A DNA stretch of 64,000 nucleotides. Origin: Pyruvatibacter sp. HU-CL02332 (GTDB taxonomy: Bacteria; Pseudomonadota; Alphaproteobacteria; CGMCC-115125). Positions 34,048 to 39,360 of the stretch are shown here, one piece after another. The DNA is taken from assembly GCF_040362765.1 (NCBI RefSeq), contig NZ_BAABWK010000001.1, forward strand, positions 1,775,501-1,839,500, in the 5' to 3' direction. Position 1 is the first letter of the stretch, and the number at the start of each line of letters is the position of its first letter. The notes beneath the pieces were generated by a model. The model ran no database searches and was not told the DNA's origin. It worked only from the letters and a program-made list of their open reading frames with translations. The translations under genes were made by a program, and so were the position numbers.

Positions 34048-36441
34048 TCAGCCGCGCAGTGTGCCGCCGGTCGCCTTCTGCACGGATGCAACGATTTTCT
34101 CAGACACAGCATCAATGTCCTTGTCGGTCATTGTCTGCCCCGTGGGCTGGAGTGTGACCTCAATAGCGACAGATTTGCTGTCCGCATCAATGCCTTTGCC
34201 CTCATAGATATCAAAGACCTGCGCATCAGTGATCAGCTTCTTGTCAGCCGCCCTGGCCGCCTTCAGCAGTGCGTTGCCTGCTACATCCTTGGTGACGACG
34301 AAGGCAAAGTCACGGCGAACCGGCATCAGATCAGCCGCATCCAGCGGTGGCTTGGAGCGTGTGGCCTTCTTGCGCGGCGCCGGAATGGCATCGAGATAGA
34401 CCTCGAACGCAGCAACGCGGCCTGACAGACCAAGCGCCTCAACAACGCGCGGGTGCAGCTCACCAAATTGTGCCAGTACAACTTTGGGCCCAAGCGTCAG
34501 CAAGCCGGAACGGCCCGGATGATACCACTCGGACGCACCGGTCGAGACTTGAGCATTTGCAGCCGGCCCGCCAGCAGCAGCCAGTGCCGCCAGCGCATCT
34601 TCCTTGGCGGTGAACACATCCGGCGCGGACGCACCCTGCCACTCACGGGTGGTGTTGCCCGCGCGAAGACCAGCAGCAGATGTGCTCTGGCCTTCTGGAG
34701 TTTCATTTGCGTAGTGCGCACCAACCTCAAACAGCGCAACGTCGCGCATGCCTCGGTCAATGTTGCGCTGAGCGGCAGCCGCAAGGGTTGCCAGAATGCT
34801 CGGGCGCATGTCGGACAGTTCTGATGAAATCGGATTTGCCAGCTCCAGCGCCTTTTGACCGCCACCGAACAGTTCCGCCTGCTGTTTGGAGCAGAAGGCC
34901 CACGTCACGGCCTCAGACAGGCCACGGGAGGCCAGTCCACGCCGGGCGAGGCGCACACGGCCCTGCATCGGCGTCAGGATCGGTTTTGCAACCGCATGAA
35001 GACGCGGCAGCGGTGTGGGCTTCACTTCGTTGATGCCGTGCACACGCACAGCTTCTTCAACGAGGTCAGCAGAGCCATGGACGTCAGGGCGCCAGGACGG
35101 CGGCGTGACCTTGGCAGGTGACGATGTGCTGTCACTCTCGAACCCAAGAGCTTCAAGGATTGAGAAGATGCGCGCGTCATCAAGTTCAAGGCCGGTGAGC
35201 TTGCGCACCCGCGCCGTATCGAACGCAATCTCGCGGCGCCATTCCGGGATGCCACCAGCGCTTTCAACGGTGCTGGCCTCGCCGCCACACATGTCGAGGA
35301 TCAGGCGTGTCGCCATTTCCATGCCGTCGTGAGCAAATTCCGGATCAACACCACGCTCAAAGCGGAAGCGGGCATCTGACGTGATGCCTGTCTTGCGGCC
35401 GGCAGTCGCAATGGTGATGGGGTCGAACAGGGCGCACTCGACGAACACATTGACCGTGTCCTCTGTGCAGCCGGAGGCCGCGCCACCCATGACACCACCA
35501 AGCCCGAGCATGCCGTTGTCGTCAGCGATGACGCACATGCTGTCGTCGGCTTTGTATTCCTTGCCGTCGAGCGCCAGAAATTCTTCGCCTGTCCGGCCCA
35601 TGCGCGCATGTACGGTGCCGGAAAGCTTGTCTGCATCAAACACATGCAGTGGACGTGCGCGGTCGAAAGACATGTAGTTGGTGATGTCCACCAGCGCATT
35701 GATTGGCCGCAGGCCGATGGCACGCAGCTTTTTCTGCAACCAGTCCGGCGATGGGCCGTTCTTCACGCCCTTGATCATCCGTCCAAGGAACAACTGGCAG
35801 GCAGGGTCGCCGTCGAACTTGAGATCGACCTTGGTGTTGCTCTCAAATGTGCCGGGAACGGTCTCTATGGTTTCAGCCTTGAGGGTACCCACGCCCATGG
35901 CGGCCAGATCACGCGCAATGCCGCGCACGCCAGTACAGTCGGGCCGGTTGGGCGTAATGGCAATTTCGATGACGGGATCATTGACGCCAAGGGCGTCCGC
36001 CGCAGACATGCCGACCTCGAAGTCACCTTCAAGATCGATGATGCCGTTGTGCTCTTCCGACAGCTCAAGCTCACGTTCCGAGCACATCATGCCGTTGGAC
36101 TGCACACCGCGAATTTCCGTCGGCTTCAACGTCATGTCGATGCCGGGCACGTAAGCGCCTTCCGGCGCAAAGATGCCGGTCAGTCCTTCGCGCGCATTGG
36201 GCGCACCACACACAACCTGCATCTCGCCTTTGGCCGTGGCGACCTTGCAGAGCTTCAGCTTATCCGCATTGGGGTGCTGTTCCGTGCTGATGATCTTCGC
36301 AACGGTGAACGCACCAAGGGCCTTGGCCGGATCGTGGATCTCTTCCACTTCCAGACCCAGCATAGTCAGGGCGTCGGACAGTTCATCAAGCGTGGCTGTT
36401 GTCTCAAGATGGTCCTTGAGCCAGGAGAGGGAGAATTTCAT
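34048..36441 (-). CDS. pheT: Phenylalanyl-tRNA synthetase beta subunit
   Basis: A 797-residue beta subunit with the N-terminal EMAP/tRNA-binding fold ([21 protein letters not shown]), B3/B4 editing region, B5, and a C-terminal anticodon-binding domain (RRDFAFVV... [11 protein letters not shown]). Together with PheS it forms the alpha2beta2 synthetase. The start overlaps the pheS stop (ATGA, 36438-36441). Confidence 0.97.
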
Positions 36442-37532
36442 CGGCTCAGCCCTCCGTATAGAGACGGTACATCCAGAGCCGAAAATCCGTAGTGCTTGAG
36501 CCAGCGCAGGTCGCCATCAAAGAACGCCCGCAGATCAGGCGCGCCATATTTCAGCATGGCGAGACGGTCAATGCCAATGCCGAAGGCAAAGCCCTGATAA
36601 ACCTCAGGGTCGAGGCCGGACGCCTTGAGCACGTTCGGATTGACCATGCCGCAGCCCAGAATTTCGAGCCAGTCATCACCCTGGCCTATCTTGATGTCTT
36701 TGCCCGAGCGATCACAGCGGATGTCCACTTCCATGGACGGTTCCGTGAACGGGAAGTAGCTCGGGCGGAAACGCATTTCCACGCTGTCTACTTCAAAGTA
36801 GGCGCGGGCGAATTCTTCCAGTGTCCAGCGCAGGTGACCCATATGGGTTGTTTCATCAATGACCATGCCTTCCACCTGATGGAACATCGGGGTGTGGGTC
36901 TGGTCACTGTCGCAGCGGAACGTGCGGCCCGGTGCAATGAAACGATGCGGCGGCTTCTCGCTGCGCATGGTGCGCACCTGCACAGGACTTGTATGGGTCC
37001 GCAGCAGCAGCCGTGAGCCGTCTTCCTGCTCATGGAAATAGAACGTGTCATGCATCTGCCGGGCAGGGTGCTCCGGCGGGATGTTCAGCGCTGTGAAGTT
37101 GTATTCGTCCGTTTCAATGTCCGGACCTTCCTTCACGTCGAATCCCATATCCGCGAAGATGGCGACGATCTCGTCCATCACCTGTGAGTTCGGGTGGATG
37201 CGGCCCTGCTCGGCGGGAGCGGCGGCAACCGGCAGCGTGACATCCACGCGGTCCTGTTCCAGCTGCACTTCCAGGGCTGCGTCATGCAGCATGGCCTGAC
37301 GGGCCGTGATGGCGTCGGCGATGCGGGTCTTGAGGCCGTTGAGAAGTGGACCCGCTTCCTTGCGTTCCTCTGGGCTCATTTTGCCCAGACCCTTCATCAG
37401 CTCTGAGACGCGCCCCTTCTTGCCCAGGGCGGCCACGCGCACCTGCTCCAGCGCGTCCAGGGTCTCAGCATCTGCGATGGCAGAGGTGAACTGGTCTTCG
37501 AGGGATTTCGCTTCAGTCTGAAGGTCGCTCAT
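36438..37532 (-). CDS. pheS: Phenylalanyl-tRNA synthetase alpha subunit
   Basis: A 364-residue class II catalytic subunit. An N-terminal coiled coil (about 1-90) is followed by the catalytic core, with motif 2 in [12 protein letters not shown]...[22 protein letters not shown] and motif 3 in [14 protein letters not shown]. It is preceded by a structured terminator-like element (37575-37656), which may regulate it. Confidence 0.97.
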
Positions 37533-37574
37533 CTGGTCTCAATTCCGGCCATTTGGGTACAGGCCTTTTGGCAT

Positions 37575-37656
37575 AAAAAAATCGCTGTTGCCACGCGCGT
37601 GGCAGCTATTCGGTTCTGGTGGGAACCGGCAGCAGCCCGCGCGGGCAAACAGCGAT
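37575..37656 (-). promoter_or_regulatory. Branched RNA element with U-tract between rplT and pheS
   Basis: On the minus strand a 9-bp outer stem (atcgctgtt/aacagcgat) encloses three small hairpins: gccc-gcgc-gggc, cggttc-ccacca-gaaccg and gccac-gcgc-gtggc. Six U residues follow, then pheS 43 bases on. An alternative long single hairpin can form from the same arms. It is either an intrinsic terminator of the rpmI-rplT transcript or an attenuator for pheST. The element is seen directly; its function is inference. Confidence 0.65.
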
Positions 37657-37683
37657 GTTTATCGTGTGGATGAGTCCTAAGGA

Positions 37684-38040
37684 CTACTTCAGCGCGGCGG
37701 CCGCCTGATCGACCAGAGCCTTGAAGGCCTCAGGTTCGCGGATCGCGATGTCAGACAGCACTTTGCGGTCCACGTCGATCCCGGCAACCGTGAGGCCGTT
37801 GATAAATCGGCCATAGGTCATGCCGTGCTCACGCGTGGCAGCATTGATGCGCTGGATCCAAAGCGAACGGAACGTACGCTTGCGGACCTTGCGGTCGCGA
37901 TACTGGTACTGGCCAGCCTTGTCGACAGCCTGGGTGGCGATGCGGAAGGTATTCTTCCGGGCGCCGTAGTAGCCCTTGGCGGCCTTGATTACTTTGCGAT
38001 GACGGGCGTGAGTTGTGACGCCCCGTTTGACACGTGCCAT
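37684..38040 (-). CDS. rplT: 50S ribosomal protein L20
   Basis: A 118-residue ribosomal protein. The N-terminal RNA-binding extension [21 protein letters not shown] and [21 protein letters not shown] are unmistakable. It follows rpmI by 38 bases. Unlike E. coli, infC is not adjacent; it lies 6.6 kb away. Confidence 0.98.
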
Positions 38041-38078
38041 GTCAGGTTCTCCTCAAACGAATTTCTAAAAAGGGGCGT

Positions 38079-38276
38079 TCAGCCGTAAGGCAGGAACTTT
38101 TTGACGACCTTGGCATCCTGTGGAGACAGGATGGTTGTCCCGCGCAGATTACGAATCTGCGTCTGAGACCGCTTGATCATGCCGTGACGCTTGCCAGCCT
38201 GGCCCGCGCGCACTTTCCCTTTAGCCGTAAGAGAGAAACGCTTCTTGGCGCCGCTCTTTGTCTTCAGTTTGGGCAT
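38079..38276 (-). CDS. rpmI: 50S ribosomal protein L35
   Basis: A 65-residue basic protein, [22 protein letters not shown], with the usual KRHGMIKRS near the middle. It is the first gene of the rpmI-rplT unit and has a good promoter about 110 bases upstream. Confidence 0.98.
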
Positions 38277-38381
38277 TTCGCGTCTTCCTTCAAATCAAAG
38301 CGCCGGATCAAGATCCAGCGCTGGAACAGCAACAAAGCCGCCATGGCATGCCCTACAGGCCAGGCGGCACTAAGAGGCGGG

Positions 38382-38410
38382 GTTATAGAGGGGCCAGAAG
38401 GGGGATGCAA
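38382..38410 (-). promoter_or_regulatory. Promoter for rpmI-rplT
   Basis: On the minus strand, TTGCAT (38410-38405), exactly 17 bases, then TATAAC (38387-38382), about 105 bases before rpmI. Good match to a housekeeping sigma-70 promoter. Confidence 0.62.
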
Positions 38411-38517
38411 GAGGGGGTGAGGCCCCGGTTCTGTCATGCCTGCTGCCCTTTTTTGTTGCCTGGCCGGGTCATGATCCGTTAGGCTGAGTTCAATATAGAA
38501 ACTCAGGAAGGTGCCCC

Positions 38518-39360
38518 ATGGCTGTGCAAAGCATGTTTGAAGACGATCCGCTGGATGATTTCGACCATCGCGAGATCACGCTGGACGGGGCGACCCCGGG
38601 CATCACCAAGATGGTGCATGTGATGGGCTCGGGCCCGGCGGTCATCGTGATGACGGAAATGCCCAATATCAGCCCGCATGTGTCGCGGTTTGCCCGCTGG
38701 GTGCGCGATGCCGGTTTCACGGTCTATATGCCCTCGCTATTTGGCCGCGATGGCGCGGTTCCCAATGAAAAAGAGGGCACGGAGAGCTTCCAGCATGCCT
38801 GTGTGAGCGCTGAATTTAGGGCTTTTGCCAAGGGCAACCCCGATGGCAAGGCCAGCCCGGTCACGATCTGGCTGCGGGCATTGGCCAAACTGGCCCACGA
38901 AGAATGTGGCGGCCCCGGCGTTGGGGCCATCGGCATGTGCTTTACCGGCAATTTTGCCTTGTCGATGATGCTTGAGGACTCGGTTCTGGCGCCGGTGCTG
39001 TCTCAGCCATCCCTGCCACTGGACGATGCCGCCGCCGTTGAAAGCCCGCCGGAAGAGCTGGCCGCCGTACGCGAACGCATGGAGCGCGACGACCTTACAG
39101 TGCTGGCCTATCGCTTTGAGGGCGACAGTTTCTGCCAGGCAGAGCGCTTTGCCCGCTACGCGGAAGCCCTGGGCGACCGTTTTGAAGGGCATGTGCTGCC
39201 CGACAGTGCTGCCAACACCGACCTGCCGGAATTCGCCAAGAAGTTTGTGACCACGCCCCACAGCGTGGTGACCACCCACCTTATTGATGAGGAAGGTGAG
39301 CCCACAGCCATGGCCCGCGACAACATTCTGGACTTCTTCAAGCAGCGGTTGGCGTCGTAG
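38518..39360 (+). CDS. Dienelactone hydrolase family protein
   Basis: A 280-residue alpha/beta hydrolase. The nucleophile is a Cys in GAIGMCFTGNFALSMM, as in dienelactone hydrolase; the His is likely in VTTPHSVVTTH. The substrate could be any small lactone or ester. It is a single gene, convergent with the LLM enzyme with three bases between the stops. Confidence 0.85.
   Translation: MAVQSMFEDDPLDDFDHREITLDGATPGITKMVHVMGSGPAVIVMTEMPNISPHVSRFARWVRDAGFTVYMPSLFGRDGAVPNEKEGTESFQHACVSAEFRAFAKGNPDGKASPVTIWLRALAKLAHEECGGPGVGAIGMCFTGNFALSMMLEDSVLAPVLSQPSLPLDDAAAVESPPEELAAVRERMERDDLTVLAYRFEGDSFCQAERFARYAEALGDRFEGHVLPDSAANTDLPEFAKKFVTTPHSVVTTHLIDEEGEPTAMARDNILDFFKQRLAS

Follow-up and report, generated by a model that had tools for sequence, protein, structure and literature searches.

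The pheST operon of enteric bacteria is governed by an attenuator of the PheM type, which comprises a short Phe-rich leader peptide and a mutually exclusive antiterminator. One study (PMC5371410, accessible portion) found the pheM attenuator of E. coli to be cut internally by RNase III; its authors suggested that the readthrough transcript predominated under the growth conditions used. L20 leaders, in which two G-C pairs in a row, together with an AA dimer, mimic rRNA, are described from Gammaproteobacteria, Firmicutes and Deltaproteobacteria (PMC7247131, accessible portion). The accessible portions of a 2009 Pelagibacter study (PMC2704228), a 2010 survey (PMC2864571), a 2018 B. subtilis paper (PMC6097659) and a 2024 review (PMC10931766) name no alphaproteobacterial L20 leader.

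The locus described here lies in a 64,000-nucleotide (64 kb) stretch of Pyruvatibacter sp. HU-CL02332 DNA, referred to as the window. On its minus strand, rpmI, rplT, a structured element, pheS and pheT follow one another in this order, together with the features listed below.

38382..38410, minus strand: promoter-like TTGCAT-17-TATAAC 5' of rpmI; both hexamers present in 4/4 genus genomes by eye
38335..38370, minus strand: candidate r-leader hairpin in the rpmI leader; from folding, covariation and a covariance model
38299..38322, minus strand: second rpmI-leader hairpin; from folding
38079..38276, minus strand: rpmI (ribosomal protein L35); from ORF translation, also the query for relatives' rpmI leaders
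37684..38040, minus strand: rplT (ribosomal protein L20); from ORF translation, the query for related loci
37575..37656, minus strand: rplT-pheS element, putative intrinsic terminator, with a rod hairpin at 37656-37581 and a U-tract to 37575; from folding, shuffles and genus comparison
37547..37565, minus strand: small hairpin GGCC...GGCC between the U-tract and pheS; weak
36438..37532, minus strand: pheS; from ORF translation
34048..36441, minus strand: pheT, overlapping the end of pheS; from ORF translation

The gene names are predictions: rpmI and pheT are presumed from their position, and rplT and pheS are so named in an earlier note on this DNA. A single copy of pheS is present genome-wide, and the element likewise occurs once in its own genome. 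Comparisons within the genus cover four genomes (G000, G001, G002 and G003), the same four and no others being returned by family- and order-level searches; the rplT of locus L004, in one of the four, has the same contig coordinates as that of L006, which is 97% identical to the rplT of the window. A DNA search of 385 genomes of the class for a wider family of the element found the four genus genomes and one 24-nt match elsewhere, which we take as chance.

The element begins 27 nt after the rplT stop codon and ends 42 nt before pheS. Its base stem (AUCGCUGUU/AACAGCGAU) is a perfect 9 bp, and the U-tract (AUUUUUUU), with six unpaired U's, abuts this stem and is invariant in 4/4 genus genomes. 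The minimum free energy fold is one long rod of 76 nt with about 30 pairs and small bulges, whose stability of -50.8 kcal/mol (z -8.3) was equalled in none of 200 dinucleotide shuffles. Among 81 hairpin-plus-U-tract places that pass our filter in the 64 kb window, this one ranks strongest; the second-strongest (60449-60361, minus strand) falls inside a reading frame open on the opposite strand. Rfam 15 gathering scores were reached in the window by two tRNAs only, and a search of positions 37400-38600 at E values up to 5 gave nothing beyond a miRNA model on the plus strand and a CRISPR repeat model, each scoring far under its cut-off. The small hairpin at 37547..37565 reads GGCGC...GCGCC in G002 by eye, and an alignment-based pair count lends its pairing no support. 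With its hairpin and U-tract, and with a rod kept in four genomes, the element is very probably an intrinsic (Rho-independent) terminator of rpmI-rplT, and we infer that it terminates transcription in the cell.

The earlier note had placed between rplT and pheS a cloverleaf of three hairpins enclosed by a 9-bp outer stem and followed by six U's, and had remarked that the arms might pair instead as one long stem, so that two exclusive folds would be possible. The location is right (37656-37575, minus strand), the stem and the U's are exact, and the arms do pair as one long stem, namely the rod; the first two of the three hairpins measure 4 bp and 6 bp, and the third has just 5 bp if the 9-bp outer stem is to stay intact, since at 6 bp it would share one A with that stem. 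The notion of two comparable folds is not borne out, as the cloverleaf reaches -34.4 kcal/mol against -50.8 kcal/mol for the rod. Base stem and U-tract are moreover common to both, so an exchange of rod and cloverleaf provides no on/off switch of termination. The cloverleaf follows from the sequence of the rod: arm 1 is almost the reverse complement of arm 3, and GCCCGCGCGGGC is palindromic, so that each arm is also able to fold on itself.

Comparison of the genus points the same way. The rod keeps its energy (G001 -50.6, G003 -50.0 and G002 -49.3 kcal/mol); the third arm of the cloverleaf is weaker in G003 (-3.3 against -6.9), and another weak hairpin (-2.9) stands in its stead in G002. Pairs specific to the rod form in full (15/15) in G000, G001 and G003 and to 12/15 in G002. 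First-arm cloverleaf pairs are complete in every genome (4/4), and third-arm pairs number 5/5 in G000 and G001, 4/5 in G003 and 3/5 in G002. RNAalifold, given the four genomes, returns the rod, in which a U-A pair of the base stem becomes C-G in G003 and a G-C pair higher up becomes U-A in G002. Compensatory change, which the earlier note had named as a check, is present but thin: double-sided changes affect 5 of 44 predicted pairs, 2 of these in the rod, and G000 and G001 are 98% alike within the element, so that the four genomes amount in effect to three sequences and the covariation is suggestive only. Neither ARAGORN nor Rfam reports a tRNA at the element. A cloverleaf or tRNA mimic, 16 kcal/mol worse than the rod and with a third arm that decays in 2/4 genomes, was rejected; we take the predicted rod to be the fold that functions.

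To place the junction in a wider context, post-rplT stretches were collected from 83 loci, two duplicate loci being left out. The gene next to rplT is pheS in 60 of them, and our filter, whose background is 19 hits in 82 shuffled stretches, finds a terminator in 36 of these and none in 24. For the other 23 loci, including L073 and L074, which end soon after rplT, no pheS was found within 450 nt; 20 of them have a terminator after rplT, so that closing off the ribosomal operon would be purpose enough for such a structure. Where a terminator and a linked pheS occur together, the U-tract starts at most 53 nt from the extrapolated pheS start in 26 of the 36 loci, which leaves little room for a promoter, and at least 87 nt from it in the other 10. 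Fourteen of the 26 are Sneathiella-type loci, 8 of which have a likelier ATG 12 nt further on.

These junctions also hold structures of other kinds. Sneathiella-type loci (L027, L028, L034, L037, L043-L045, L047, L049-L052, L054 and L068) have a conserved attenuator-like leader in the rplT-pheS spacer, in the order rplT stop, CGGGCCC, a small hairpin and a terminator containing GGGGGCCC right before pheS; judged by its sequence, CGGGCCC could pair with the GGGGGCCC of the terminator. Since double-sided changes are found in 1 of 23 predicted pairs, this leader rests on sequence conservation and geometry; of 385 class genomes searched with a model of it, 4 have a match, and these belong to a single genus. 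At L029, L056 and L064 the rplT-pheS terminator is conserved in sequence (GCUCUAUGAGCGU...ACGUUGAUAGGGCUUUUUUUAUG) beyond the needs of a plain terminator. Parvibaculum-type loci (L020, L022, L026, L067, L035, L038 and L041) have a long structured spacer in which the filter finds no terminator in 6 of 7 cases, L035 passing; the region before the pheS start appears to be paired to a strand upstream, and translational control is possible there. The motif GGACUUGNCGGGCC, present in the rplT-pheS spacers of four relatives, was rejected as a widespread motif, as it occurs in 42/385 genomes and a backward control is about as frequent by eye. The devices at the rplT-pheS junction thus seem to differ among alphaproteobacteria, and that of the window looks the plainest.

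Polymerase that has transcribed rpmI-rplT would meet the rod and U-tract and mostly halt, and a minority would read through into pheST; L35 and L20 would consequently be plentiful and phenylalanyl-tRNA synthetase scarce. The 42 nt that separate U-tract and pheS hold no recognisable promoter, so that readthrough probably supplies pheST, and we give this inferred leak about even chances of being the main source of the pheST transcript. The best promoter score in the spacer is 7/12 in three genomes and 8/12 in G003, where the site runs into the pheS start codon, and 97 to 199 of 200 shuffles match these scores. If the leak is real, it would explain how head-to-tail gene groups serve products needed in very different amounts.

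Among the alternatives, the one that survives best is that the rpmI-rplT terminator is near-complete and pheST is transcribed from its own promoter, located in the 42-nt spacer or overlapping the 3' arm of the element. It shares its terminator part with the preferred reading, and the odds attached to the two overlap. The terminators after rplT in 20 of 23 loci without a nearby pheS speak for it, as do the 10 of 36 linked loci whose U-tract starts at least 87 nt before pheS, with room for a promoter; no promoter-like pair before pheS is conserved across the four genus genomes, however, and spacer scores are no better than those of shuffles. A non-consensus promoter overlapping the 3' arm is possible, given that TTGCAT-17-TATAAC, the likely rpmI promoter, itself matches only 8/12 positions of the sigma-70 consensus, a score reached by 56 to 95 of 200 shuffles. 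We regard a near-complete terminator with a dedicated pheS promoter as less likely than not.

That the rod is mainly an RNase III processing site separating the rplT message from that of pheST appears unlikely. Its roughly 30 pairs with small bulges would suit the enzyme, and in E. coli RNase III cleaves the pheM attenuator, which occupies this very junction (PMC5371410, accessible portion), yet such a site has no need of a U-tract, and the U-tract is invariant in four genomes. Cleavage by RNase III could occur in addition to termination.

The earlier note had hesitated between a plain terminator of rpmI-rplT, the reading that is borne out here by the hairpin and U-tract, the conserved rod and the terminators of pheS-less loci, and a novel attenuator responsive to tRNA or L20. 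Regulated attenuation, in which a signal (uncharged tRNA-Phe, L20 or other) would shift the rod to a non-terminating fold, accords with the position of the element immediately upstream of pheS, which the E. coli pheM attenuator shares (PMC5371410, accessible portion), with the sequence-conserved attenuator-like leader at the same junction in Sneathiella-type loci and with a 5' arm, TTTGCCCGCGCGGGC, invariant in four genus genomes, but it is highly improbable given that rod and cloverleaf share the terminating stem and U-tract, that the cloverleaf is 16 kcal/mol worse, that the best upstream duplex with the 5' arm, the would-be antiterminator, is matched in 167/200 shuffles over 150 nt and in 37/200 over 620 nt, that no Rfam family applies and that, in agreement with the earlier note, no Phe-rich leader peptide was found, no short frame starting within 37760-37520 on the minus strand having at least two Phe. 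The relevance of L20 to this operon may lie at its other end, in the rpmI leader.

When the rpmI leaders of 12 loci were folded, the same hairpin recurred in distant relatives. Its stem has 12 pairs and one bulged base, in most cases U, and its loop reads ..AGGGCAU; in the window (38370-38335, minus strand) 11 of the 12 pairs form, and the whole match to the covariance model described below spans 38372-38303 on the same strand. The sequence GGGCAUGCC is present in 45 of 83 rpmI leaders and absent in 38, and GGCATGC is missing from the last 250 nt in 30, Sneathiella-type leaders among them. At least 10 of the 12 pairs form in 43 of the 53 leaders that have GGCATGC; this level is reached by a mean of 29 when upstreams are swapped between loci, which still pair because the stems resemble each other, and by 5 when they are shuffled. 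A second strong hairpin (38322-38299, minus strand), with a stem of changing sequence, is found in 4/4 genus genomes between the conserved leader hairpin and the ribosome-binding site.

The 5' strand of each hairpin was taken as the best-pairing one within 45 nt, a choice that also fixed the stretches aligned and that favours the observed outer-cell pairing in both of the following counts: 32 distinct hairpins show 235 of 256 outer cells paired against a maximum of 213 in 1000 row shuffles, and all 53 loci (45 distinct) show 317 of 360 against a maximum of 281 in 1000 shuffles. For the 32-hairpin count, 14 of the 53 loci had been removed by hand, mostly Stappia/Pseudovibrio types that have no adjacent 5' strand; four of the 14 (L032, L036, L060 and L061) nevertheless reach 10 pairs, in three cases by closing loops of at least 30 nt. 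Removal of three near-copies left 36 rows, and removal of ten MAFFT-misaligned short-loop rows and of L014, L019 and L085 left 23. In this 23-row alignment 94.2% of cells are paired, double-sided changes occur in 8 of 12 pairs, none of 500 shuffles equals it on any of five measures, and pairing drops to at most 51% once the partner is shifted by 1 to 3 columns. Two consecutive G-C pairs are invariant in 23/23 hairpins. Judged by eye, an AA follows the hairpin in many relatives; CUUUGUUGC stands there in the window's genome, and AA is not seen in its own genus. Stappia/Pseudovibrio-type rpmI leaders (L030, L057, L060-L062, L065 and L066) keep the 3' half, GGGCAUGCCGUGGCGG, with no clear adjacent 5' strand.

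A covariance model built from the 23 sequences matches 55 of 385 alphaproteobacterial genomes, in one place each (E <=0.001), a count that includes the genus and, in all probability, further species from which the alignment was drawn, and is to that extent not independent of the model. Genomic position is not part of the model, and 53 of the 55 matches lie directly before rpmI-rplT (30/30 of the best genomes and 23/25 of the others); for the remaining two matches, both weak, tblastn found no rpmI. In the 30 best genomes the match is on the same strand as rpmI, no more than about 95 nt upstream of it or in contact with its start; each of these loci also contains rplT, and pheS was found in 29 of them. 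One of the 30, L142, has a second, weak match elsewhere at a looser cut-off (E 0.0042). Rfam 15 yields no match on the strand of the hairpin, in the window or in L003.

Because its place, its stem with a conserved bulge and the linkage to rpmI-rplT all fit, this conserved hairpin is a candidate autoregulatory leader for L20 or L35, a proposal drawn from sequence comparison. Within Rfam 15 and the freely readable literature that was searched, it is also a candidate for an undescribed one. The two ends of the operon can be read jointly, in a model to which we give even odds: the alphaproteobacterial rpmI-rplT(-pheST) operon would be under a leader of undescribed scaffold, a hairpin with a bulged base and an AGGGCAU loop to which L20 (or L35) binds, with repression of the operon as the outcome, and the rplT-pheS element would be a second control point, a leaky terminator dividing a self-limited transcript from a low supply of pheST. 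The terminator itself is ordinary, and the rpmI leader matters more.

Like intrinsic terminators after ribosomal-protein operons, the element is a G+C-rich hairpin abutting a U-tract, 27 nt after the stop codon and conserved in the genus; its rod is unusually long at 76 nt, and a gene on the same strand follows 42 nt on. With the E. coli pheM-pheST attenuator it has in common a terminator-like structure between rplT and pheS, and it differs in having neither the Phe-rich leader peptide nor the alternative antiterminator for which we searched. The rpmI leader resembles the L20 ribosomal leaders covered in the accessible portion of PMC7247131 in being a conserved structured RNA before the L35-L20 genes with two consecutive invariant G-C pairs, but its scaffold is judged to be a different one, since Rfam gives no match, it is found in Alphaproteobacteria, and the AA dimer is not seen after the hairpin in the window's own genus. 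If this leader does respond to L20, it would add a further scaffold for the same protein.
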